The translations under genes were made by a program, and so were the position numbers. A stretch of 64,000 bases of DNA from Bacteroidaceae bacterium (lineage in GTDB: Bacteria > Bacteroidota > Bacteroidia > Bacteroidales > Bacteroidaceae), in the NCBI GenBank assembly GCA_024398615.1, contig JAKSIU010000001.1, positions 62,001 through 126,000 on the forward strand, given 5' to 3'. Within the stretch, counting starts at the first letter, position 1. Every line of letters begins with the position of its first letter. This document shows, piece by piece, positions 1-36,068 of the stretch. A model generated the notes under the pieces. It was not told where the DNA came from and did no database searches. It worked only from the letters and a program-made list of their open reading frames with translations.

Positions 1-1139
1 AAGGTGTTTCCAGTACGGACATCCTTGAGCTTGACGGTGCAGCCAAGATCACCGGGCATAAGTTCCGGAACCTGAATACGGTTACCCATACCCTGGCTTA
101 CGAAAATCTGAGCCACGCGTTCCTTTGAGCCACGGTCACCGTTGACCATATCCTGACCTTCGTGGGCCTTGCCTGACATTACCTTGAAGTATGAAACGGC
201 ACCGATATGGGGTTCCATTGAAGTCTTGAAGAAGAACAGAGATGTGCCGGCTGCATCAAGAGCAACGGTTTCGCCCTTGGCATCCTGAACCTTTGCGCCT
301 TCCAGTGGTGACGGAGCGACATTGCCCAGGAACTCGACCAGACGGTTGACACCTACGTTGGTTGAAGCCGATGAGCAGACAATCGGGAACAGGCCGCAGC
401 TTTCAATACCCTTGCGGAATCCAAGACGGATTTCATCGGTTGAAAGTTCACCCTGATCGAAGAACTTGTCCATGAGGGCTTCGTCATTCTCGGCAGCCGA
501 TTCGGTAATGGCATCGCGCATGGCCTGAGCCTTGTCTGCTACTGCAGCAGGGATATCCTCGGCCTTTGCAGGCTGACCGTCAGTGAATGTGAGCTTCTGG
601 TTCAGCAGAACGTCTATGATGCTCTTGAATGAAGGACCTGCCTGCTCCGGGAACTGGATAGGAACACAGGTTGTTCCGAATGTTGAACGGATCTGCTCGA
701 CCACACTGTCATATTCGCACTTGTCGCTGTCAACATGGTTGATCAGGAAGAATGCGGGCTTGCTCAGTTTCTTTACAAGACGGTAGCTGTTGATGACACC
801 TACATCAACACCGCGGGCACCGTTCACAAGAATGACGGCTGAATCACAGATGTTCAGAGCGGTAACGGCCTGACCTGAGAAGTCATCAGAACCCGGGCAG
901 TCGAAGAAGTTGAACTTCTTGCCTGCAAGTTCCACTGAAAATACTGTTGAATAGACTGAATAGCCGTATTCGAGCTCCACTGCTGCAGTGTCGCTTACGG
1001 TATTCTTCTGGTTGACTGAACCGCGGCGCTTGATGACGCCGGCTTCGAAAAGGATGCTCTCTGAAAGAGTGGTTTTACCTGATCCGGAACCGCCCATGAT
1101 AGCGATATTCCGGATGTCCTGTGTTGAGTAATTCTTCAT
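1..1139 (-). CDS. fusA2: EF-G-like translation factor EF-G2 (3' end outside the window)
   Basis: Ribosomal translocase-like GTP-binding protein; only the N-terminal 379 codons are here. The ATG at 1139-1137 gives MKNYSTQDIRNIAIMG. A P-loop GGSGSGKTT lies at residues 16-24. The other GTPase motifs are altered from canonical EF-G: DCPGSDDF at 80-87 replaces DTPGHVDF, so the catalytic His is Ser. NHVD at 134-137 replaces NKxD, and the switch I RGIT motif reads YGYS. This pattern fits the second EF-G of Bacteroides (EF-G2), reported to translocate without GTP hydrolysis. It lies divergent to hemW with a strong -33/-7 promoter. Tetracycline-protection proteins are less likely because they keep the canonical motifs. 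The family call is firm; loss of GTPase activity is inferred. Confidence 0.9.
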   Translation of the reverse strand, partial: MKNYSTQDIRNIAIMGGSGSGKTTLSESILFEAGVIKRRGSVNQKNTVSDTAAVELEYGYSVYSTVFSVELAGKKFNFFDCPGSDDFSGQAVTALNICDSAVILVNGARGVDVGVINSYRLVKKLSKPAFFLINHVDSDKCEYDSVVEQIRSTFGTTCVPIQFPEQAGPSFKSIIDVLLNQKLTFTDGQPAKAEDIPAAVADKAQAMRDAITESAAENDEALMDKFFDQGELSTDEIRLGFRKGIESCGLFPIVCSSASTNVGVNRLVEFLGNVAPSPLEGAKVQDAKGETVALDAAGTSLFFFKTSMEPHIGAVSYFKVMSGKAHEGQDMVNGDRGSKERVAQIFVSQGMGNRIQVPELMPGDLGCTVKLKDVRTGNT

Positions 1140-1190: not shown

Positions 1191-1221
1191 CAAATTTATT
1201 AATAATAGGTAAAACCGCAAA
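1191..1221 (-). promoter_or_regulatory. Promoter of fusA2
   Basis: On the minus strand, TTTG (1221-1218) is followed after 19 bases by TAAATTTG (1198-1191), an exact Bacteroides -33/-7 match. It leaves a leader of roughly 45 bases before the ATG at 1139. Confidence 0.7.
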
Positions 1222-1277: not shown

Positions 1278-2420
1278 ATGGCAGGCATTTACATACATAT
1301 ACCTTTCTGCAGAAAACGCTGCATATACTGCGCCTTCTACTCGACTCTCAAGGCCGATGCAATGCAGCGTTACACCGGTTGCGTGTGCCGCGAGCTGGAA
1401 CTGCGCGGTCATGAAATCGCAGACGGAGCACCATACACAGTATATTTTGGAGGGGGTACCCCATCGTGTCTGTCGCTTTCACAGCTGGAACGGATTGTTG
1501 AAGCGACATACATCATAACCCACGGCAACGTAAGCGAGATGACCGTCGAGTGCAATCCCGATGACTTGAGTGCACAATACGCGGCAGGGCTGCGCAGCAT
1601 GGGATTCAACCGCATAAGTATGGGCATACAGACTTTCAATGACCATATTCTGGAGTTTCTTGGACGCCGTCATGACTGCGCAAGGGCAATTGAAGCTGTC
1701 AGGAATTGCAGGAATGCCGGATTCGACAACATAAGCATAGACCTCATGTACGGCCTTCCAGGCCAGACACTGGAAATACAGCGGTGTGACCTTGAAACCG
1801 CGACACGGCTTGACGTGCAGCACATTTCATCATACTGTCTGTCATTTGAGGAAGGTTCGCCGCTCTGGAAACTCAAGCAGCAGAACCGTGTCGTCCCTTC
1901 CGATGATGATCTCTGCCGGGACATGTATCTGGCCATGTGCGACCATCTCCACGCTCACGGTTTCGAGCACTACGAAATTTCCAATTTCTGCAGGCCCGGG
2001 TTCCATTCACGCCACAACAGCAGCTATTGGAACGGAACTCCGTATCTTGGCATCGGACCATCAGCCCACTCCTTCAACGGTAAATGTCGCAGGTGGAACG
2101 TATCGGACCTGGAGATGTACATGTCAGGAATAGAAAAGGTTTCCCAATCGGAGCCGGAACCGGACAGCATTGCCGAAAGCGAAGTCCTGACACATGACGA
2201 CACCGTAAACGAAAACATAATGCTTTCTCTAAGGACCGTCAACGGACTTGATTTACAGAAGCATGCAGAACGTTTCGGACCGGCGGAACTGACAAGGCTT
2301 GAAAAGGAAGCCGGTCCCCTGCTCGAGGCCGGCTTTCTGAAACTGTCTGACGGAAACTTGATTATCCCTGAAGAACAATGGTTCGTCAGTGACGGGACCA
2401 TCAGTTCGCTGTTCGTGTAA
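1278..2420 (+). CDS. hemW: Radical SAM heme chaperone HemW
   Basis: Radical SAM protein of the HemW family, a heme-binding chaperone related to oxygen-independent coproporphyrinogen oxidase; about 380 residues, normal for the family. The iron-sulfur motif CRKRCIYC (Cys-x3-Cys-x2-Cys) sits near residue 13. HNSSYW near residue 249 is the HemW HNxxYW signature. It lacks the N-terminal extension of true HemN. The ATG at 1278 (MAGIYIHIPF) is chosen over an in-frame TTG at 1266 because family members start just before YIHIPFC. It converges with glmM, 12 bases away. Confidence 0.93.
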   Translation: MAGIYIHIPFCRKRCIYCAFYSTLKADAMQRYTGCVCRELELRGHEIADGAPYTVYFGGGTPSCLSLSQLERIVEATYIITHGNVSEMTVECNPDDLSAQYAAGLRSMGFNRISMGIQTFNDHILEFLGRRHDCARAIEAVRNCRNAGFDNISIDLMYGLPGQTLEIQRCDLETATRLDVQHISSYCLSFEEGSPLWKLKQQNRVVPSDDDLCRDMYLAMCDHLHAHGFEHYEISNFCRPGFHSRHNSSYWNGTPYLGIGPSAHSFNGKCRRWNVSDLEMYMSGIEKVSQSEPEPDSIAESEVLTHDDTVNENIMLSLRTVNGLDLQKHAERFGPAELTRLEKEAGPLLEAGFLKLSDGNLIIPEEQWFVSDGTISSLFV

Positions 2421-26782: not shown

Positions 26783-27868
26783 ATGAGCAACTTTTTCGTT
26801 GAAGACAACCTGTCCGGGCTCAGGAGACAGGATTTCCAGAAAACAGTACAGGGAAAGCAGACCGACCTCTACATTCTCAGAAACAGCAGAGGCGCCGAAA
26901 TAGCAGTAACCAACTTTGCCGGAGCGCTTCTCTCCATAATGATGCCGGACCGCAACGGCAAGATGGAGAGCGTGGTATGGGGGCATGACAGCATCGACCA
27001 CGTAATGGAAAGCCAGGAGACCTACCTGAGCGTACTGATAGGACGCTACGGCAACCGTATAGCCGGCGGACGCTTCACCATTGACGGTAAGGAATACACA
27101 CTGGCAACCAACGACGGTCCCAACAGCCTGCACGGTGGACCTACAGGTTTCCACAAGCGCGTTTTCGATGCCCAGCAGACCGATTCCTCAACACTCAAGC
27201 TCCACTACCTGTGCAAGGACGGTGAAGAGGGTTTCCCCGGCAATCTGGATGTCAACGTCACCTACCGTCTGACTGACGACAACGAGTTGGTAATCGAATA
27301 TGAGGCAACTACCGACAAGAAGACCGTCGTATGCCTGACCAACCATGCCTACTTCACGCTGAACGGCATGAAGAAGAGCCCCGCAAATATCCTGGATTAC
27401 GACCTGACCATCAATGCCGACCACTACGTTCCAATCGATGCCACATGCATCCCGCTTGGCAACATCGACAAGGTCGAAGGCACACCGTTCGATTTCCGCA
27501 CTCCCCACAAGATCGGAGAGCGCATTGAAGATGGCCAGCAGACAGCAAACGGCCACGGCTACGACCACTGCTGGGTACTGAACAAGCGCGAACCCGGCGA
27601 ACTCTCATTTGCAGTCAAGTGTGCCGATCCCGCCAGCGGCCGTACCCTTGAATGCTGGACAACCGAACCTGGTGTACAGTGCTATACCGGAAACTGGTGC
27701 AGCGGCAGCATCTGCGCCCACGGCTCCGACCTGCCCCGCCGTTGTGCCGTCTGCTTCGAAGCCGAGCACTTCCCTGACAGTCCGAACAATCCTCATTTCC
27801 CAAGCGCAACGCTCAACCCCGGCGAAGTCTATACACAGACCACCATTTACCGTTTCGGAGTAGAATAA
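26783..27868 (+). CDS. galM: Aldose 1-epimerase (cytoplasmic)
   Basis: Mutarotase of 361 residues interconverting alpha and beta sugar anomers. Motifs: GRYGNRIAGGRFTIDGKEY, NGPNSLHGG-type loop (NDGPNSLHGGPTGF), catalytic His in LTNHAYFTLNG and the Glu in a PGEVYTQTTIYRFGV tail. There is no signal peptide, unlike the other two epimerases in the window. It is the first gene of the seven-gene sugar operon, 9 bases before galK. Confidence 0.93.
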   Translation: MSNFFVEDNLSGLRRQDFQKTVQGKQTDLYILRNSRGAEIAVTNFAGALLSIMMPDRNGKMESVVWGHDSIDHVMESQETYLSVLIGRYGNRIAGGRFTIDGKEYTLATNDGPNSLHGGPTGFHKRVFDAQQTDSSTLKLHYLCKDGEEGFPGNLDVNVTYRLTDDNELVIEYEATTDKKTVVCLTNHAYFTLNGMKKSPANILDYDLTINADHYVPIDATCIPLGNIDKVEGTPFDFRTPHKIGERIEDGQQTANGHGYDHCWVLNKREPGELSFAVKCADPASGRTLECWTTEPGVQCYTGNWCSGSICAHGSDLPRRCAVCFEAEHFPDSPNNPHFPSATLNPGEVYTQTTIYRFGVE

Positions 27869-27877
27869 GCCTGGGAG

Positions 27878-29029
27878 ATGGACAACAGCGAACTCAAAGC
27901 CAGGTTCAAGGAACAGTTCGGCCATGACTGCCGTCTGTTCTTTTCCCCGGGCCGCATCAACCTGATCGGTGAACACACCGACTACAACGAAGGATTTGTC
28001 TTTCCGGGTGCAGTTGACAAAGGCATAACTCTTGCCATAGCACCCAACGGTACCCGGACAGTCAACGTTTTCCCCATTGACCTTGAAGACGAAACGGTCT
28101 GTTCATTCAGTCTTGACACCCCATCAAAGCCCAGCCAGCGCTGGGCCTGTTACGTTTTCGGGGTCTGCATGGAACTGGCCGCACGCGGTTTCCTGTGCGA
28201 TGGATTTGACGCCACTTTCACAGGGAACGTACCGCTTGGAGCCGGGATGTCTTCATCGGCAGCCATCGACTGCGTATTCGCATTCGCTCTGAATGAACTG
28301 TTCTGCGAAGGCAGGATTGACAAGTTCGAACTGGCACGCATAGGCCAGGCAACCGAAAACAACTGGCTGGGACTGAAATGCGGCATCATGGACCAGTTCG
28401 CATCGGTCTTCGGCAAGAAAGGCCAACTCATACGCCTGGACTGCCGTTCACTCGAATACGAATACTTTCCGTTCAACCCCAAGGGCTACAGTCTGGTGCT
28501 GGTCGATTCATGCGTCAAGCACATGCTGGGCGGCGAATATAACGAACGCCGCGAAAGCTGCGAAAAAGCAGTGGCTGCCATCGCATGCCGTTGGCCGCAA
28601 GTAAAGGCGCTCAGGGATGCCACACACGACATGCTGGATGCAGTACGCAATGACATAACCGAAACCGACTACCAGCGTGCCCTCTACATTCTGGACGAAA
28701 AGGACCGCGTTCTTGAAGTCTGCGACTCACTTGACAAAGGCGACTACGAGAATGTGGGACGATGCATGTACCGCACGCACTGGGGCATGAGCCGCCAGTT
28801 CGGCGCAAGCTGTCCCGAGACCGATTTCCTGGTCGAAACCGCAGCCGGATGCGGTGTGGCCGGAAGCCGCATCATGGGCGGAGGCTTTGGAGGATGCACC
28901 ATCAACCTTGTCAGAGACGACATGATGGAGTCCTTCCTTGAAAGCGTACGTTCAGCATACAATGAGAAATTCAGAATTGAACCGAAAATCTACAAAGTCA
29001 CGGTAAGTGACGGCACTCACGAGATATAA
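27878..29029 (+). CDS. galK: Galactokinase
   Basis: GHMP kinase of 383 residues that phosphorylates alpha-D-galactose at C1. Signature PGRINLIGEHTDYNEG near residue 27, the ATP loop GNVPLGAGMSSSAAID near 115, the catalytic Asp in LKCGIMDQFASVFG and the C-terminal GGGFGGCTINLV. No galT or galE is in the window, so the Leloir pathway must be completed elsewhere. An arabinokinase role is conceivable from the ara context, but the signature is standard for GalK. Confidence 0.94.
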   Translation: MDNSELKARFKEQFGHDCRLFFSPGRINLIGEHTDYNEGFVFPGAVDKGITLAIAPNGTRTVNVFPIDLEDETVCSFSLDTPSKPSQRWACYVFGVCMELAARGFLCDGFDATFTGNVPLGAGMSSSAAIDCVFAFALNELFCEGRIDKFELARIGQATENNWLGLKCGIMDQFASVFGKKGQLIRLDCRSLEYEYFPFNPKGYSLVLVDSCVKHMLGGEYNERRESCEKAVAAIACRWPQVKALRDATHDMLDAVRNDITETDYQRALYILDEKDRVLEVCDSLDKGDYENVGRCMYRTHWGMSRQFGASCPETDFLVETAAGCGVAGSRIMGGGFGGCTINLVRDDMMESFLESVRSAYNEKFRIEPKIYKVTVSDGTHEI

Positions 29030-29064
29030 TTCATTAATAATCAACCAATAATCAAAACAAAACA

Positions 29065-30231
29065 ATGAAAAAGAGTTCCATTTTGCTCGTTGCAGGAATG
29101 CTTGCTATGGCAGCCTGCACACAGAAGGAGGAAAAGACGCCTGTTCTCAACAAGGCCGATTTCCAGACTGAATTCACAGGCAAACAGACCGATCTGTACA
29201 CGCTTACCAACGCAAACAACTGCGAAGTCTGGGTCACCAATTTCGGTGCCCGTATCGTTGCAATCATGGTTCCTGACAAGGACGGAAAGATGCAGGATGC
29301 AGTCATCGGCTTCAAGAACATCCAGGACTACACCACTCTGGCAAGTGATTTCGGTTCAACCGTAGGACGCTATGCAAACCGCATCAATCAGGGCCAGATT
29401 ACCATTGACAGCGTTCTATATCAGCTTCCTCAGAACAACTTCGGCCACTGCCTGCACGGCGGTTGCGACATTACCATTCCGCTTGGATGGCAGAATCTTG
29501 TATGGGATGTCAAGGAAGTTTCAGGAAATGCAATCACTCTGGTCATGAATTCAGCCGACGGTGAAGCCGGATTCCCCGGCAACGTCGTTGCAACCGTCAC
29601 CTACACTCTCAATGACAACAACGCCATTGACATTGTCTGGAAGGCCACAACTGACAAGAAGACCGTCATCAACATGACCAACCACAGCTACTTCAACCTG
29701 AACGGTGACCACTCGATTCCAATCACAAACCACATTCTCACTCTTAATGCCGACAACTTCACACCTTGTGACAGCACCTATATGACAACAGGCGAAATCG
29801 CTCCTGTAGCAGGCACTCCTATGGATTTCACCAAGGGCCGCAGAATCGGTGAGGCAATCGAAGGACTCGAAGGTGCCGCATTCGAAGACGAGCAGCTCAG
29901 AAACGGCAACGGCTATGACCACAACTGGGTTCTGAACACCAAGTGTGATGACACCAAGTGCGCAGCCAAGCTGTACAGCCCCATCACCGGCATCTTCGTT
30001 GAGGTCTACACCAACGAACCCGGTATCCAGTTCTATTCAGGCAACTTCCTTGATGGCTCAGGCAATGACAAGCAGGGCAACCCGATGGTTATCCGCACAG
30101 GCTGCTGCCTCGAAACCCAGAAGTTCCCGGACAGCCCGAACAAGGCCGATCTTCCCGGATGGTACAGTGCAATTCTGGAACCAGGTCAGGAATACTACAG
30201 CCACTGCATCTACCAGTTTGGCGTAGAATGA
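29065..30231 (+). CDS. Aldose 1-epimerase, lipoprotein form
   Basis: Second mutarotase of the operon, 388 residues. The signal peptide ends LAMAACTQKEEK, with a lipidated Cys and then charged residues, so it is periplasmic or surface anchored. Catalytic motifs are kept: GRYANRINQGQITIDSVLY, NNFGHCLHGG, MTNHSYFNLNG and the C-terminal LEPGQEYYSHCIYQFGV. It could convert sugar anomers before uptake by the adjacent symporter. Confidence 0.9.
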   Translation: MKKSSILLVAGMLAMAACTQKEEKTPVLNKADFQTEFTGKQTDLYTLTNANNCEVWVTNFGARIVAIMVPDKDGKMQDAVIGFKNIQDYTTLASDFGSTVGRYANRINQGQITIDSVLYQLPQNNFGHCLHGGCDITIPLGWQNLVWDVKEVSGNAITLVMNSADGEAGFPGNVVATVTYTLNDNNAIDIVWKATTDKKTVINMTNHSYFNLNGDHSIPITNHILTLNADNFTPCDSTYMTTGEIAPVAGTPMDFTKGRRIGEAIEGLEGAAFEDEQLRNGNGYDHNWVLNTKCDDTKCAAKLYSPITGIFVEVYTNEPGIQFYSGNFLDGSGNDKQGNPMVIRTGCCLETQKFPDSPNKADLPGWYSAILEPGQEYYSHCIYQFGVE

Positions 30232-30268
30232 TTACAACGCAATTATTAACCAATCAAATAAACACCAA

Positions 30269-32218
30269 ATGTTTTTACAATCAGTTTCAGTGTTGGAAGG
30301 CCTCAAGACCAACGGCTTTGCAACCATTGACTACATCGTAGTTATCGCCTATCTGGCGCTTCTCATTTTCCTGGGATTCTTCCTGTCACGCAGCAAGAAC
30401 GGTAAAGAGAAAGATTCAAAAGACTACTTCCTGGCAGGTAACACCCTGACATGGTGGGCAGTAGGTGCATCACTCATCGCAGCCAACATCTCGGCCGAGC
30501 AGTTCATCGGAATGTCCGGAACAGCTTTCGCTTCAGGTATCGCAATTGCAGCTTACGAACTTATGGCAGCAGCCACACTTATCGTTGTAGGTAAGTTCCT
30601 GCTTCCTGTCATGATTGAAAAGAAGATCTTCACCATTCCGCAGTTCCTCCGCGACCGTTACAATCCGGGAACAGGTCTGGCCTTCTCGATCTTCTGGCTT
30701 TTCCTTTACATATTCATCAACCTGACATCAGTTGCATGGCTGGGTGCTCTGGCCATCGAGCAGATTCTGGGACTCCGCGGCTGCGTTCTCATGATTGGCA
30801 GCACATCAATCTCAATCCGTCTGGTCATCATCCTGATTCTCTACATCATTGCAGGTGTATACTCAATCTACGGCGGTCTGTCATCAGTTGCATGGACCGA
30901 TGTAATGCAGGTCACCTTCCTGGTAGGCGGTGGTCTGATTACCGCTTATGCAGCCCTGAAGGTCATTTCCACCAAGCTCGGTCTTGAAGGCGGTGCTCTT
31001 GCAGCTCTCGGTCATGTATTCCAGAGCCTCAAGGACGTTCCCGGTGACACACACTTCAACCTGGCTGTCCAGCGTAACGCTGCCATGTACCCGGGCATTA
31101 CCGATGACCCGTACTTCACACTGCCAGGCATTGCCCTCATCGTAGGTGCCCTGTGGCTGACCAACCTTGGTTACTGGGGCTTCAACCAGTACATCATCCA
31201 GAAGGGTCTTGCAGCAAAGAGCCTTGACGAAGCCAAGAAGGGTATGATCTTCGCAGCATTCCTGAAGATATTGATCCCGTTCATCGTATGTATCCCGGGC
31301 GTATGCGCATTCTATATCAAGACACAGCAGCCTGAGATGTTCGCGCAGCTGGCAGGCGGCATATCCATTTCCGATGACGCCTATCCGTTCCTTATCCGCA
31401 ACTTCACCCCGGTATTCATCAAGGGTCTGTCGTTTGCAGCACTTGCAGCCGCTGTCATTTCGTCACTGGCTTCGATGTTCAACTCGACATCGACCATCTT
31501 CACGATGGATATCTACAAGCAGTACATCAAGAAGGATGCAACTGAAAAGAACCTTGTAAACGTAGGCCGTCTGACATCAGTCTGTGCACTGGTTATCGCA
31601 ATGATTGCCGTTTATCCTATCATGGGCGGTGCCGACCAGGCATTCCAGATTATCCAGGAGTACTCAGGTTTCGTTTATCCGGGCGTTGTAGTAATCTTCG
31701 GTCTGGGTCTGCTGTGGAAGCGTGCTTCAGGTCCTGCAGCCGTAGTTGCAGCCATCGGAACATTCTTCTTCTCAATCCTGTTCAAGTTCCTGCTGCCTGA
31801 GGTTCCGTTCCTGCTCCGCATGGGTTACGTGTTCCTGGTACTCGTTGCCATCTTCGTTCCCATGTCACTGCTCAACAAGAGCGGCCGCATCGAGGCTGAG
31901 AAGCTTGACCAGCACACCATCGACACACAGCTCAAGTGGTCAAAGGTCCTGTTCATCGCTGCAGGCGTTTCATTTGCAGTATTCATCTGGGGCATGTGCT
32001 CACCGGTTCTCCGTTCATGGGGCTTCGAGGCAATGCTGTTCTTCGCAGCCATCCTTGGTGTACTCGGTCTGTACCTGCGCTCGAATGCAAAGGACAAGTA
32101 CCAGAATGCCAAGGCAGTCGGTATTGATCTGGCTCTGTTCCGCACTGACCGCACATTCAACATCGGTGCAATCTGCGTCATTGTAATCCTTGCAATCCTC
32201 TACGTATTCCTTTGGTAA
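30269..32218 (+). CDS. Sodium/sugar symporter (SSS family)
   Basis: Solute:sodium symporter of 649 residues with about 14 membrane spans. [19 protein letters not shown] and [20 protein letters not shown] match SGLT-type sugar carriers (vSGLT, arabinose AraP-like). It carries L-arabinose or galactose, judged by operon position; sequence does not decide between them. The ATG at 30269 follows the lipoprotein epimerase by 37 bases, and araD starts 4 bases after the stop. Confidence 0.92.
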
Positions 32219-32222
32219 TCAC

Positions 32223-32918
32223 ATGCTGGAAGAATTGAAAGAAAAGGTGTTCCAGGCCAATCTGGACCTTGTCCGTCAAGGCCTGGTCATCTTTACGTGG
32301 GGAAACGTTTCGGGCATAGACCGCGAAAAGGGACTTGTCGTCATCAAGCCCAGCGGTGTGAGCTATGACGAAATGAAGGCATCCGACATGGTAGTGGTCT
32401 CCCTCGAAACCGGAAAGGTTGTCGAGGGTGACCTCAACCCGTCATCGGACACTCCTACACACCTTGTTCTCTACAGGGCGTTCCCAAACATCCAGGGCGT
32501 TGTCCACACCCACTCCACCTATGCCACAGCATGGGCCCAGGCCGGCATGGACATACCCAACATAGGAACAACCCACGCCGACTACTTCTACAAGGACATT
32601 CCCTGTACGGCCGACATGACCGAAACCGAAGTGAAAGGCGAATACGAACTTGAGACCGGCAACGTCATTGTACGCCGTTTCGAAGGAATCAACCCTGACC
32701 ACACCCCCGGTGTTCTGGTAAAGAACCACGGTCCGTTCTCATGGGGAACCAGTCCTGCAAACGCCGTATATAATGCAAAGGTGATGGAGCAGTGCGCCAA
32801 GATGGCCTACATCTCGTTCACTCTCAACCCCGACACGACAATGAACCCGCTTCTTGTCGAGAAGCACTACATGCGCAAACATGGCCCGAATGCATACTAT
32901 GGCCAGAAGAAAAAGTAA
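32223..32918 (+). CDS. araD: L-ribulose-5-phosphate 4-epimerase
   Basis: Class II aldolase-fold, zinc-dependent enzyme of 231 residues giving D-xylulose-5-phosphate. [20 protein letters not shown] near residue 25, the zinc histidines in [14 protein letters not shown] and [12 protein letters not shown]-type [17 protein letters not shown], and [11 protein letters not shown] near 168. The ATG at 32223 ([10 protein letters not shown]) is preferred over an in-frame start 33 bases upstream inside the symporter gene. Confidence 0.95.
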
Positions 32919-32938
32919 CACAAAAAAAATTACAGACT

Positions 32939-34471
32939 ATGTTTGACAATTATGAAATATGGTGGGTGACCGGTGCCCAGCTCCTTTACGGAGGCGATGC
33001 AGTGGTCGCAGTTGACGGACACTCAAAGGAGATGGTTGCAGGTCTCAACGACAGCGGCAACATTCCCGTCAAGATAGTATATAAAGGTACTGCCAACAGC
33101 AGCAACGAGGTCGAGGCCGTAATGAAGGCTGCCAACAACGACGCCAAGTGCATAGGTATCATCACCTGGATGCACACATTCAGCCCCGCCAAGATGTGGA
33201 TCAAGGGACTTCAGGCACTTGAAAAGCCGCTCCTCCATTTCCACACACAGTACAACACTGAAATTCCTTGGGACAGCATCGACATGGACTTCATGAACCT
33301 GAACCAGAGCGCCCACGGCGACATCGAGTTCGGTCACATCTGCACCCGCATGCGCATTGCCCGCAAGGTCGTTGTAGGACACTGGAAGAGTCAGGATGCC
33401 CAGAAGCAGATTGCAGTATGGGCACGTGCCGCTGCCGGTAAGGCCGATGCACACAACGTACGCTGCCTTATGTTCGGTATGAACATGAACAACGTTGCCG
33501 TTACTGACGGTGACCGTGTCGAGTTCGAGCAGCGCATGGGCTACCATGTTGACTACTACCCCGTTTCATCTCTGATGGACTATTATAAGAAGGTGACTGA
33601 CGCTGAAGCCGATGCACTTGTAGAGGAATACAAGAAGCTCTACACCATCAAGATTGACGAGAGCGGAGAAGAGGTCTATTGGGAGAAGGTAAAGAATTCA
33701 GCGAAGGCCGAAATCGCACTGCGCCGTGTCCTGAAGGACGAAGGTGCCACCGCTTTCACCACCAACTTCGATGACCTGGGCGGTGCAGACATTGATGACC
33801 CCAACTTCCTGGGCTTTGACCAGATTCCGGGTCTCGCATCACAGCGTCTCATGCAGGAAGGCATCGGCTTCGGTGCTGAAGGTGACTGGAAGACCGCTTG
33901 CCTGTACCGCACTCTCTGGGTCATGAACCAGGGTCTTGCAAAGGGCTGCTCATTCCTTGAGGACTACACCCTGAACTTTGCAGCCGACTGCACATCAAGC
34001 CTGCAGAGCCACATGCTGGAAATCTGCCCGATGATTGCCAGCGACAAGCCAAAGCTGGAGGTTCATTTCCTTGGCATCGGCATCCGCAAGCAGCAGACCG
34101 CACGTCTGGTGTTCACATCAAAGACCGGCCGCGGCATCAAGGCCACACTTGTTGACCTGGGCAACCGCTTCCGTCTGATTACCAGCGAAGTCGAGTGCAT
34201 TGAGCCGAAACCAATGCCCAAGCTGCCGGTTGCAAGTGCCCTCTGGGTACCACAGCCAACATTCGAGATCGGTGCCGGCGCATGGATTCTTGCAGGAGGC
34301 ACACACCATAGTGCATTCTCATATGACATCACCGCTGAATACTGGGAAGACTTCGCTGAAATGACAGGTGTCGAGTTCATCAGCATTGACAAGAACACCA
34401 CCATTGCAGGATTCAAGCAGCAGCTTCGCAACAACGAAGTCTATTACATGCTCAACAAAGCCCTGAAGTGA
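32939..34471 (+). CDS. araA: L-arabinose isomerase
   Basis: Manganese-dependent isomerase of L-arabinose to L-ribulose, 510 residues. It aligns throughout with the E. coli enzyme as I recall it: MFDNYEIWWVTGAQLLYG, WMHTFSPAKMWIKGL and PWDSIDMDFMNLNQSAHG. The metal and catalytic residues are all present: Glu314 in GAEGDWK, Glu341 in FLEDYTLNF, His in SHMLEICP and His in GGTHHSAFS. The ATG at 32939 is 20 bases after araD; a longer in-frame extension into araD is rejected. Confidence 0.97.
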   Translation: MFDNYEIWWVTGAQLLYGGDAVVAVDGHSKEMVAGLNDSGNIPVKIVYKGTANSSNEVEAVMKAANNDAKCIGIITWMHTFSPAKMWIKGLQALEKPLLHFHTQYNTEIPWDSIDMDFMNLNQSAHGDIEFGHICTRMRIARKVVVGHWKSQDAQKQIAVWARAAAGKADAHNVRCLMFGMNMNNVAVTDGDRVEFEQRMGYHVDYYPVSSLMDYYKKVTDAEADALVEEYKKLYTIKIDESGEEVYWEKVKNSAKAEIALRRVLKDEGATAFTTNFDDLGGADIDDPNFLGFDQIPGLASQRLMQEGIGFGAEGDWKTACLYRTLWVMNQGLAKGCSFLEDYTLNFAADCTSSLQSHMLEICPMIASDKPKLEVHFLGIGIRKQQTARLVFTSKTGRGIKATLVDLGNRFRLITSEVECIEPKPMPKLPVASALWVPQPTFEIGAGAWILAGGTHHSAFSYDITAEYWEDFAEMTGVEFISIDKNTTIAGFKQQLRNNEVYYMLNKALK

Positions 34472-34472
34472 T

Positions 34473-36068
34473 ATGGCCTACAATCCAAAACAGATAATTG
34501 AGCAGGGCAAGGCCGTTCTCGGTATAGAGTTCGGTTCCACACGAATCAAGGCCGTTCTCATCGACCCTGAATTCAAGCCCATTGCACAGGGCAGCCACAC
34601 CTGGGAGAACCAGCTTGTGAATGGCCTGTGGTCATACAGCGTTGAAAGCATCTGGTTCGGTCTTCAGGACTGCTACCAGAACCTTCGCGCCCAGGTTCTC
34701 GAAAAGTATGAATGCGAGATTGAAAACCTTGCATCAATAGGTATCAGTGCCATGATGCACGGATACATGCCTTTTGACAAGCATGGAGACATTCTGGCAC
34801 CATTCCGCACATGGCGCTGCACCAATACGGGCAAAGCCGCTGCCGAACTTTCCAGTCTGTTCAATTTCAACATTCCTCTGCGTTGGAGCATATCGCACCT
34901 CTATCAGGCCATTCTTGATGACGAGCCGCACGTCAAGGACATCGACTACCTGACCACACTGGCAGGTTTCATCCACTGGCAGCTCACCGGAAAGAAGGTT
35001 CTTGGCGTAGGTGACGCATCGGGTATGATTCCGGTCGATCCCGCCACCAAGAGCTACAATGCCGAAATGGTAGCCAAGTTCGACAAGCTCATCGCTCCCA
35101 AGGGATATCCCTGGAAGCTTCTGGACATCCTGCCCCAGTCACTCGATGCAGGTCAGGATGCCGGCTGTCTTACCGAAGCCGGAGCACGCAAGCTTGACAT
35201 TACCGGCCACCTCAAGCCCGGAGCACAGATCTGTCCTCCTGAAGGCGATGCAGGCACCGGCATGGTAGCCACCAACGCAGTACGTCCGCGCACCGGTAAC
35301 GTATCGGCAGGAACCTCATCGTTCTCAATGATAGTACTGGAGAAGGACCTCAAGAAACCGCACGATGTCATTGACATTGTCACCACTCCTGACGGCAGCC
35401 CGGTTGCCATGGTACACTGCAACAACTGCACCAGCGACCTCAACGCATGGGTCAACCTTTTCAAGGAATATGAGGAGATTATGGGAATGAAGGTCGATAT
35501 GGCCCGCATCTTCACCAATCTGTTCAACCATGCCCTGAAAGGAAGCAAGGACTGCGGCGGAATAATGAGCTTCAACTATGTATCGGGCGAGCCTGTCACC
35601 GGCTTTGCTGACGGACGTCCTCTGTTCGTCCGCTCCGCTCAGGACAAGTTCAACCTTGCCAACTTCATGCGCGCCATCATAAGCGGTGCCATCGGCGTTC
35701 TCAAGATAGGCAACGACATCCTGTTCAAGGAGGAGAAGATCAAGGTTGACCGCATTACAGGTCACGGCGGTCTGTTCACCACTCCCGGTGTAGGTCAGCG
35801 CATTCTGGGTGCCGCCCTCAATTCACCGATCTCATGCATGGAGACAGCCGGTGAAGGCGGTCCGTGGGGTATGGCTATCCTGGCCGCCTACCGTATAAAC
35901 GGTGGAGGTCAGAACCTGGCCGACTATCTGGACGAGAAGGTATTTGCCGGCAACACCGGCACATCGGTAGCTCCAGATCCCGAAGACGTGGAAGGCTTCA
36001 ACGCCTACATTGAGAACTACAAGGCATGCCTGCCAATCGAGGCAGCTGCCGTAGCTCACAAGAAATAA
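34473..36068 (+). CDS. araB: FGGY carbohydrate kinase, probable L-ribulokinase
   Basis: Sugar kinase of 531 residues with the FGGY fold: ATP/sugar domain AVLGIEFGSTRIKAVLIDPE, IGISAMMHGYMPFDKHGDIL, the phosphate loop GNVSAGTSSFSMIV and a C-terminal ITGHGGLFTTPGVGQRILG. It is not the E. coli or B. subtilis AraB subtype. Its place directly after araA, one base apart, completing araD-araA-kinase, makes L-ribulokinase by far the best call. Xylulokinase or rhamnulokinase activity is the alternative. It is the last gene of the operon. Confidence 0.82.
   Translation: MAYNPKQIIEQGKAVLGIEFGSTRIKAVLIDPEFKPIAQGSHTWENQLVNGLWSYSVESIWFGLQDCYQNLRAQVLEKYECEIENLASIGISAMMHGYMPFDKHGDILAPFRTWRCTNTGKAAAELSSLFNFNIPLRWSISHLYQAILDDEPHVKDIDYLTTLAGFIHWQLTGKKVLGVGDASGMIPVDPATKSYNAEMVAKFDKLIAPKGYPWKLLDILPQSLDAGQDAGCLTEAGARKLDITGHLKPGAQICPPEGDAGTGMVATNAVRPRTGNVSAGTSSFSMIVLEKDLKKPHDVIDIVTTPDGSPVAMVHCNNCTSDLNAWVNLFKEYEEIMGMKVDMARIFTNLFNHALKGSKDCGGIMSFNYVSGEPVTGFADGRPLFVRSAQDKFNLANFMRAIISGAIGVLKIGNDILFKEEKIKVDRITGHGGLFTTPGVGQRILGAALNSPISCMETAGEGGPWGMAILAAYRINGGGQNLADYLDEKVFAGNTGTSVAPDPEDVEGFNAYIENYKACLPIEAAAVAHKK

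Follow-up and report, generated by a model that had tools for sequence, protein, structure and literature searches.

Does an EF-G paralog whose GTPase catalytic residues are substituted still move tRNA and mRNA on the ribosome, and does it spend GTP in doing so? This question is raised by the gene found at the start of the window, the 64,000-nucleotide stretch of DNA analysed here (G000:C1:62001-126000). The purpose of GTP hydrolysis by EF-G in translocation is described as still debated (PMC12775393). GTPase-free translocation by the EF-G2 of Bacteroides thetaiotaomicron is already in print: this protein is reported to translocate without GTP hydrolysis and to lack GTPase activity (Han et al., EMBO J 2023). 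An initial annotation of the window had proposed that the gene is an ortholog of this factor and extends its trait to another lineage.

A full-length EF-G paralog with an altered GTPase centre

The 5' part of the gene occupies positions 1..1139 of the window on the minus strand (379 codons), with a conserved ATG at position 1139, and its open reading frame exits the left window edge. Completing it from the flanking sequence of the same contig, as the initial annotation had advised, gave a full-length ORF of 717 codons (L006:4986-7139, minus strand), and EF-G domains I to V are all recognised by Pfam in the 717-residue product. The GTPase (G) domain with its G' insert covers residues 8-276 (312..1118, minus strand; GTP_EFTU, 113.1 bits) and domain II residues 302-382 (EF-G_D2, 34.9 bits), of which residues 302-379 are in the window (3..236, minus strand). 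The structure predicted for the part in the window had a mean pLDDT of 44.4, too low for a structure search, and the model plays no part in what follows.

Four features had been read in the G domain from the letters alone, and alignment recovered each of them on the minus strand: an intact P-loop (GGSGSGKT, residues 16-23, 1071..1094), YGYS replacing RGIT in switch I (residues 58-61, 957..968), DCPGSDDF as G3 motif (residues 80-87, 879..902) and NHVD replacing NKxD in G4 (residues 134-137, 729..740). Ser84 (888-890) stands opposite the catalytic histidine of canonical EF-G, so the suspicion that this histidine was merely shifted elsewhere was not borne out. The residues contacting Mg2+ and phosphate are retained in the alignment along with the P-loop. 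The YGYS change is predicted to be conservative, because serine, like the threonine it replaces, keeps the hydroxyl that holds Mg2+. The genome also possesses a separate canonical EF-G, whose absence would have weakened the proposal; it lies on another contig, with RGIT, DTPGHVDF and NKMD intact, beside ORFs assigned by eye to ribosomal proteins L3 and L4. An RF3-like ORF of the window, named by eye and by a search match, keeps DTPGHQDF and NKLD, as had been noted. In two other members of the genus (G011 and G017), a pair of canonical-type EF-G matches was obtained per genome; the copies inspected (L235, L236) have diverged yet keep DTPGHVDF and NKMD.

The gene belongs to the Bacteroidales EF-G2 family

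The protein scored 1148 bits against the NCBIfam EF-G2 model NF058620 (EFG2_Bacteroid), over its cut-off of 1000, and stayed under the cut-offs of the canonical EF-G model TIGR00484 (469.5 bits for 659.4; Ser84 stands where that family has histidine) and of the Tet(Q) model (114.8 bits for 1425). Its nearest solved chain, PDB 7uvp/8dmf (718 residues), aligned end to end with 1092 bits and is 100% identical to the EF-G2 gene product of Bacteroides faecis MAJ27. The molecule name of this PDB chain, 'tetracycline resistance protein TetQ', disagrees with its EF-G2 match, and the label appears wrong. Our comparison with Bacteroides was based on B. faecis and other named loci, 80 in all, among which no B. 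thetaiotaomicron record occurs. The first 379 residues of the window protein are 54-59% identical to 23 Bacteroides-type relatives.

The protein also carries the marks of the EFG II subfamily. Gly16 was found in 215/215 sequences and Leu25 in 209/215, the window included, and both are present in its EF-G2; the fourth place of switch I is Ser in 211/215 and Thr in 4/215, the window protein having Ser. The lysine pair of loop I in domain IV corresponds to K487 and K488. Margus et al. (2011, PMC3150367) defined EFG II by its relaxed G2 motif and listed YGYSV for Bacteroidetes, so that the switch I observation was already in print.

EF-G2 matches were obtained in 36 of the 37 genomes of the genus, 118 of 121 of the family and 227 of 247 sampled in the order. 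At E values up to 1e-165 they extended to 154 of 395 genomes of the phylum, nine of which belong to a low tier of about 560 bits. Canonical EF-G was detected in 30 of the 37 genus genomes, and the seven lacking it are 77-90% complete. In the tree, named loci of Bacteroides, Phocaeicola, Mediterranea and Paraprevotella fall inside the family branch, as does L224, from another family; GTDB places Paraprevotella in Bacteroidaceae. On these grounds we take the family to be GTDB Bacteroidaceae and the order to be Bacteroidales, and the organism of the window appears to belong there. By these sequence criteria, the window gene is a Bacteroidales EF-G2 (fusA2-type, EFG II subfamily), an ordinary member of a widespread known family. 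The proposed orthology to Bacteroides EF-G2 is thus supported by the curated family model, the trees, a common insert and the neighbouring genes.

The catalytic histidine is missing from every EF-G2 sampled in the order

We then compared the catalytic position in 165 proteins of the order: the window protein, 20 from the genus, 31 from the family, the 28 best-scoring from the order, the 80 named ones and five low-scoring ones from the order. Here the residue is Ser in 140, Ala in 23, Thr in one and Met in one, in a sample that leans to the best matches and in which some species may occur in both the named and the unnamed sets. To correct for this lean, 40 mid-scoring members of the order were added, giving 205 proteins; these carry Leu (11), Ala (10), Ser (7), Met (5), Phe (3), Gly (2) or Pro (2). 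Neither His nor Tyr occurred at this position in any of the 205 EF-G2s of the order. Among 50 EF-G2-type proteins from outside the order, hand-picked across the score range of the phylum, Tyr was found in 36, Leu in 5, Thr in 4, Phe in 2 and Pro, Ser and Ala in one each, with His in 0/50. Four relatives lacking the domain IV insert described below also have Tyr. As a control, all 29 canonical EF-Gs extracted from 30 genus loci showed DTPGHVDF and ERGIT.

Lys22, Asp80 and Gly83 are invariant in 255/255 sequences (205 of the order and 50 outside), and the P-loop residues Lys22 and Thr23 in 165/165 of the order. The lysine of NKxD is lost in 164/165 order sequences and 39/40 of the added ones, and retained in 19/50 outside the order. 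At the tip of domain IV, His591 is present in 163/165 (the other two are gapped) and in 40/40 of the added members, and K488, Q489, G491 and G492 are found in 165/165. YGYS was considered as an order-wide mark: YGYS or YGYT occurs in 28/28 best-scoring order members but in only 2/40 mid-scoring ones, and it was dropped. Extension of the B. thetaiotaomicron trait to this lineage is plausible, as had been suggested, but it is a small step, since every sampled member of the order lacks the histidine.

Loss of this residue is not by itself a proof of GTPase loss, because the EF-G-2 of Thermus thermophilus, whose PDB chain (1wdt) aligns as DAPGYGDF with Tyr in place of His, is said to bind GTP and to hydrolyse it with a higher intrinsic GTPase activity (PMC3150367). 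The EF-G2 of Mycobacterium smegmatis, as cited in the same paper, binds guanine nucleotides and lacks ribosome-dependent GTPase activity. The initial reading of an altered GTPase therefore stands as far as the substitution of catalytic residues is concerned, but residue logic alone is insufficient to carry it further. We consider a GTPase deficiency of the window protein likely.

A domain IV insert and its probable stepwise history

Alignment with the genome's own canonical EF-G revealed a single long insertion of 27 residues, at residues 506-532 in domain IV. Han et al. reportedly found that a 26-residue segment of domain IV governs the GTPase loss of B. thetaiotaomicron EF-G2, and we infer that the insert is this same segment. 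Measured between alignment borders (residues 504-537), the segment has 34 residues in the window protein and in 20/20 genus, 31/31 family, 28/28 best-scoring order and 80/80 named sequences, as well as in four of the five low-scoring order loci. In the 40 added order members it has 34 residues in 34, 25 in three, and 35, 36 and 38 in one each; outside the order it has 25 residues in 48 of 50, with one each of 26 and 27, and insert-less forms have 6-7 residues. The fifth low-scoring locus, L224 (G260, another family of the order), has one in-frame TAG within the insert, which is either a sequencing error or a real truncation. Its segment of 27 residues stems from this stop, and L224 was excluded from the tree described below and included in the 165 residue counts.

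A tree of 131 proteins was computed by a quick method under a simple model, with the insert and motif columns removed and a midpoint root. On it the three length classes of the insert need two changes, and a single branch (SH-aLRT 98) separates the long class from the rest. YGY needs one change, the classes His/Tyr/other four, and His/aromatic/non-aromatic six. Four EFG II-type proteins from outside the order (L215-L218), insert-less and with Tyr, take an intermediate position in the trees, with canonical EF-G on one side and the family that bears the insert on the other. The simplest reading of these sequences is that His was replaced by Tyr, an 18-residue insertion occurred once, Tyr then gave way repeatedly to small or aliphatic residues, and a 9-residue extension took place once within the order; the direction of these changes is inferred, because the root is a midpoint root.

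Selective constraints on EF-G2 and canonical EF-G

The selective constraints on the two factors were compared in 18 genus genomes carrying both EF-G2 and canonical EF-G. The mean amino-acid difference is 0.178 for EF-G2 against 0.072 for canonical EF-G in the G core, 0.256 against 0.244 in G', and 0.029 against 0.098 in domain IV without the insert, the insert itself reaching 0.156. The ratio of the G domain to domains III-V is 3.71 for EF-G2 and 1.47 for canonical EF-G; EF-G2 has the higher ratio in 134 of the 151 pairs that could be used, out of 153, and the difference exceeds zero in 1000/1000 bootstraps over genomes. pN/pS agrees with the amino-acid pattern (G domain, 0.189 for EF-G2 vs 0.143 for EF-G; domains III-V, 0.065 vs 0.096). 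Median dN/dS, restricted to pairs with unsaturated synonymous sites (111 for EF-G2 and 145 for EF-G out of 153), is 0.062 vs 0.069 in the G domain and 0.028 vs 0.032 in domains III-V, so that within these pairs the amino-acid result is not repeated and the EF-G2 G domain is not the more relaxed one. All domains of EF-G2 are under purifying selection. The amino-acid pattern suggests that the protein works through its tRNA-mimic half and that GTP turnover is less constrained.

Gene neighbourhood and expression control

Upstream, a divergent HemW-like radical-SAM gene (1278..2420, plus strand), recognised by eye from CxxxCxxC, accompanies EF-G2 in 19/20 genus, 20/30 family, 13/28 order and 38/80 named loci (tblastn, >80 bits, as for the following genes). 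Downstream, past the window edge (L006:2541-4857), are ORFs that, judged by eye, encode a histidine kinase and a response regulator. The kinase is found near EF-G2 in 20/20 genus, 20/30 family, 11/28 order and 68/80 named loci. The response regulator is found in 67/80 named loci, at 81-82% identity in the eight matches shown, and in 0/78 of the non-named loci, whose 1500-base flanks stop before its position. EF-G2 may thus be part of a long-lived gene neighbourhood.

Bacteroides promoters have a consensus of -33 and -7 boxes. By eye, a putative promoter resembling it lies at 1191..1221 on the minus strand, composed of TTTG (1218-1221) and TAAATTTG (1191-1198), and -7-like boxes precede EF-G2 in the majority of the 20 genus loci. 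The activator of fusA2 in B. thetaiotaomicron is BT4338, later named Cur (PMC10994844), which acts at CCTTATGTTACATAACATTGTT (PMC6989115). Activation by Cur has been shown in Bacteroides under carbon limitation and is no requirement for assigning a protein to EF-G2. The upstream region of B. faecis EF-G2 carries TTATGTTACATAACATTGTT. We looked for such sites within 350 bases, allowing at most 3 mismatches in 14 positions and leaving out loci with short flanks (2 named, 1 order). They were found in 61/78 named, 19/30 family and 17/27 order loci but in 1/20 genus loci, for about 5.7, 2.4, 2.4 and 0.9, respectively, expected from single-base shuffles. Upstream of the window EF-G2 there is no recognisable Cur site: the best match has 6 mismatches in 14 positions and none with 3 or fewer lies near the gene.

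Our candidate for Cur is L271, a B. faecis protein chosen on account of its family (Crp), its identity pattern and its co-occurrence with the site. It has a match at E values up to 1e-30 in 80/121 family genomes, identity being only 30-39% in five of them, and in 0/37 genomes of the window genus, eight of which are at least 90% complete. It is also absent from other near-complete genomes of the family, 59/86 having a match. A Cur site is present in 19/26 loci with the regulator and in 1/24 without it (Fisher p 3.6e-7), the latter being the 20 loci of the window genus and four of one further genus, that is, about two independent losses rather than 24; for family loci alone the figures are 19/26 and 0/4 (p 0.012). 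Since the operator is unrecognisable in the window genus and the candidate regulator is found in none of its 37 genomes, EF-G2 expression there is probably not controlled as it is in Bacteroides.

The initial annotation had also set the gene at about 25 kb from an arabinose operon. Two galM-like genes, a galactokinase gene and a sodium/solute symporter gene, followed by arabinose genes, occupy window positions 26783-36068. The L-arabinose isomerase ORF (32792-34471, over its family cut-off) begins about 31.7 kb from the EF-G2 start, further than had been estimated, and is followed by the gene of a sugar kinase (34473-36068) that falls short of the xylulokinase cut-off. In B. thetaiotaomicron Cur connects the arabinose genes with fusA2. 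A link between these genes and EF-G2 is not supported in the window, as no Cur site was found upstream of EF-G2 and the candidate regulator was found in 0/37 genus genomes. Four sites with 3 mismatches at 24.5-26.5 kb all lie within the dnaJ and folC ORFs and were put down to chance; 5/100 shuffles had as many Cur-like matches as this stretch.

Discussion

We propose that the window EF-G2 is probably an alternative ribosomal translocase, working beside canonical EF-G without, or almost without, GTP hydrolysis. The factor would bind the ribosome with GTP, its G domain having an intact P-loop and intact Mg2+ and phosphate ligands; tRNA and mRNA would be moved by the tRNA-mimic domains III-V; and the protein would then leave the ribosome with no or hardly any GTP hydrolysed. 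Such a release would be possible because the catalytic histidine is gone and the extra domain IV segment has altered the release step. Cells that are starved or grow slowly would thereby spare GTP, with canonical EF-G still at hand.

As an EFG II factor, the protein could instead have kept GTP hydrolysis, at a slow rate or by a route independent of the histidine, as Thermus EF-G-2 does in the description of PMC3150367. Such an enzyme fits the retention of the P-loop Lys and Thr, of Asp80 and Gly83, and of Ser or Thr as residue 61, and likewise a median dN/dS of the G domain that is not above that of canonical EF-G. Two points speak against it: within the order the position is taken by S, A, L, M, T, G or P, with Phe in 3/205 and Tyr, the Thermus residue, in 0/205, and GTPase activity is reportedly lacking in the ortholog of B. 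thetaiotaomicron. We regard residual hydrolysis as unlikely. A role in another step, such as recycling or the clearing of stalled ribosomes, rather than in general translocation has a precedent in Borrelia, where translocation and recycling are divided between EF-G paralogs (as cited in PMC3150367). The tip and loop I residues of domain IV are nevertheless kept in nearly all members, and domain IV without the insert varies less within the genus than that of canonical EF-G, so that we give this role only a slim chance.

Two further readings have almost nothing left in their favour. The molecule name of the closest solved chain would make the protein a tetracycline ribosomal-protection factor; the family-model scores, far under the Tet(Q) cut-off and over that of EF-G2, lead us to reject this identity, and EF-G2 is found in most genomes sampled in the order. 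Amino-acid change in the GTPase core exceeding that of canonical EF-G might be taken as a sign of a decaying, non-functional paralog. Decay is contradicted by purifying selection in every domain, by the full-length ORF, by the presence of the gene in 36/37 genus genomes and by the retention of its neighbours, and is just as improbable.

With an alternative translocase as the preferred reading, a broader and more tentative view can be put forward, which we hold to be somewhat less probable than its converse. Hydrolysis-free translocation would not be a speciality of gut Bacteroides but would have arisen stepwise in Bacteroidota (His to Tyr, the 18-residue insertion, the exchange of Tyr for small or aliphatic residues on at least two branches and the 9-residue extension in Bacteroidales), leaving living intermediates, and in the window genus it would have been uncoupled from the Cur starvation switch. 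If this uncoupling is true, EF-G2 would be made under a different programme in this genus, perhaps during ordinary growth. The natural series, consisting of His, Tyr without the insert, Tyr with the insert, and Ser, Ala or Leu with the short or long insert, could serve to locate the step that abolishes hydrolysis. The open-licence literature, which was queried on other points, gave no account of the series at the histidine position or of the missing Cur site. For the genome itself, the practical yield is a correct gene name and the caution that the starvation control of Bacteroides should not be assumed.

Comparison with known systems

Thermus thermophilus EF-G-2 (1wdt/2dy1) is likewise an EFG II relative without the catalytic histidine; it has Tyr there and GTP hydrolysis is described for it, whereas the window protein has Ser84. 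The EF-G2 of M. smegmatis is, by its description, a comparable EF-G paralog that binds guanine nucleotides and lacks ribosome-dependent GTPase. Bacteroides EF-G2 (fusA2, BT2167; NF058620; 7uvp/8dmf) matches the window protein along its full length and shares with it YGYS, DCPGSDDF, an intact P-loop and the 34-residue domain IV segment; most named loci also have the histidine kinase and the response regulator beside it. It differs in G4, where 79/80 named loci have NQLD and the window gene NHVD, and in its Cur (BT4338) operator, which is unrecognisable in the window genus, where the candidate Cur gene was not found either. With the EFG II subfamily the window gene shares Gly16, Leu25, Ser for Thr in G2 and the lysine pair of loop I; NKxD in G4 is given as conserved in that subfamily (PMC3150367), whereas the window protein has lost its lysine. 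For EFG II, Margus et al. (PMC3150367) describe a domain pattern similar to the variation among EF-G2 domains within the genus.
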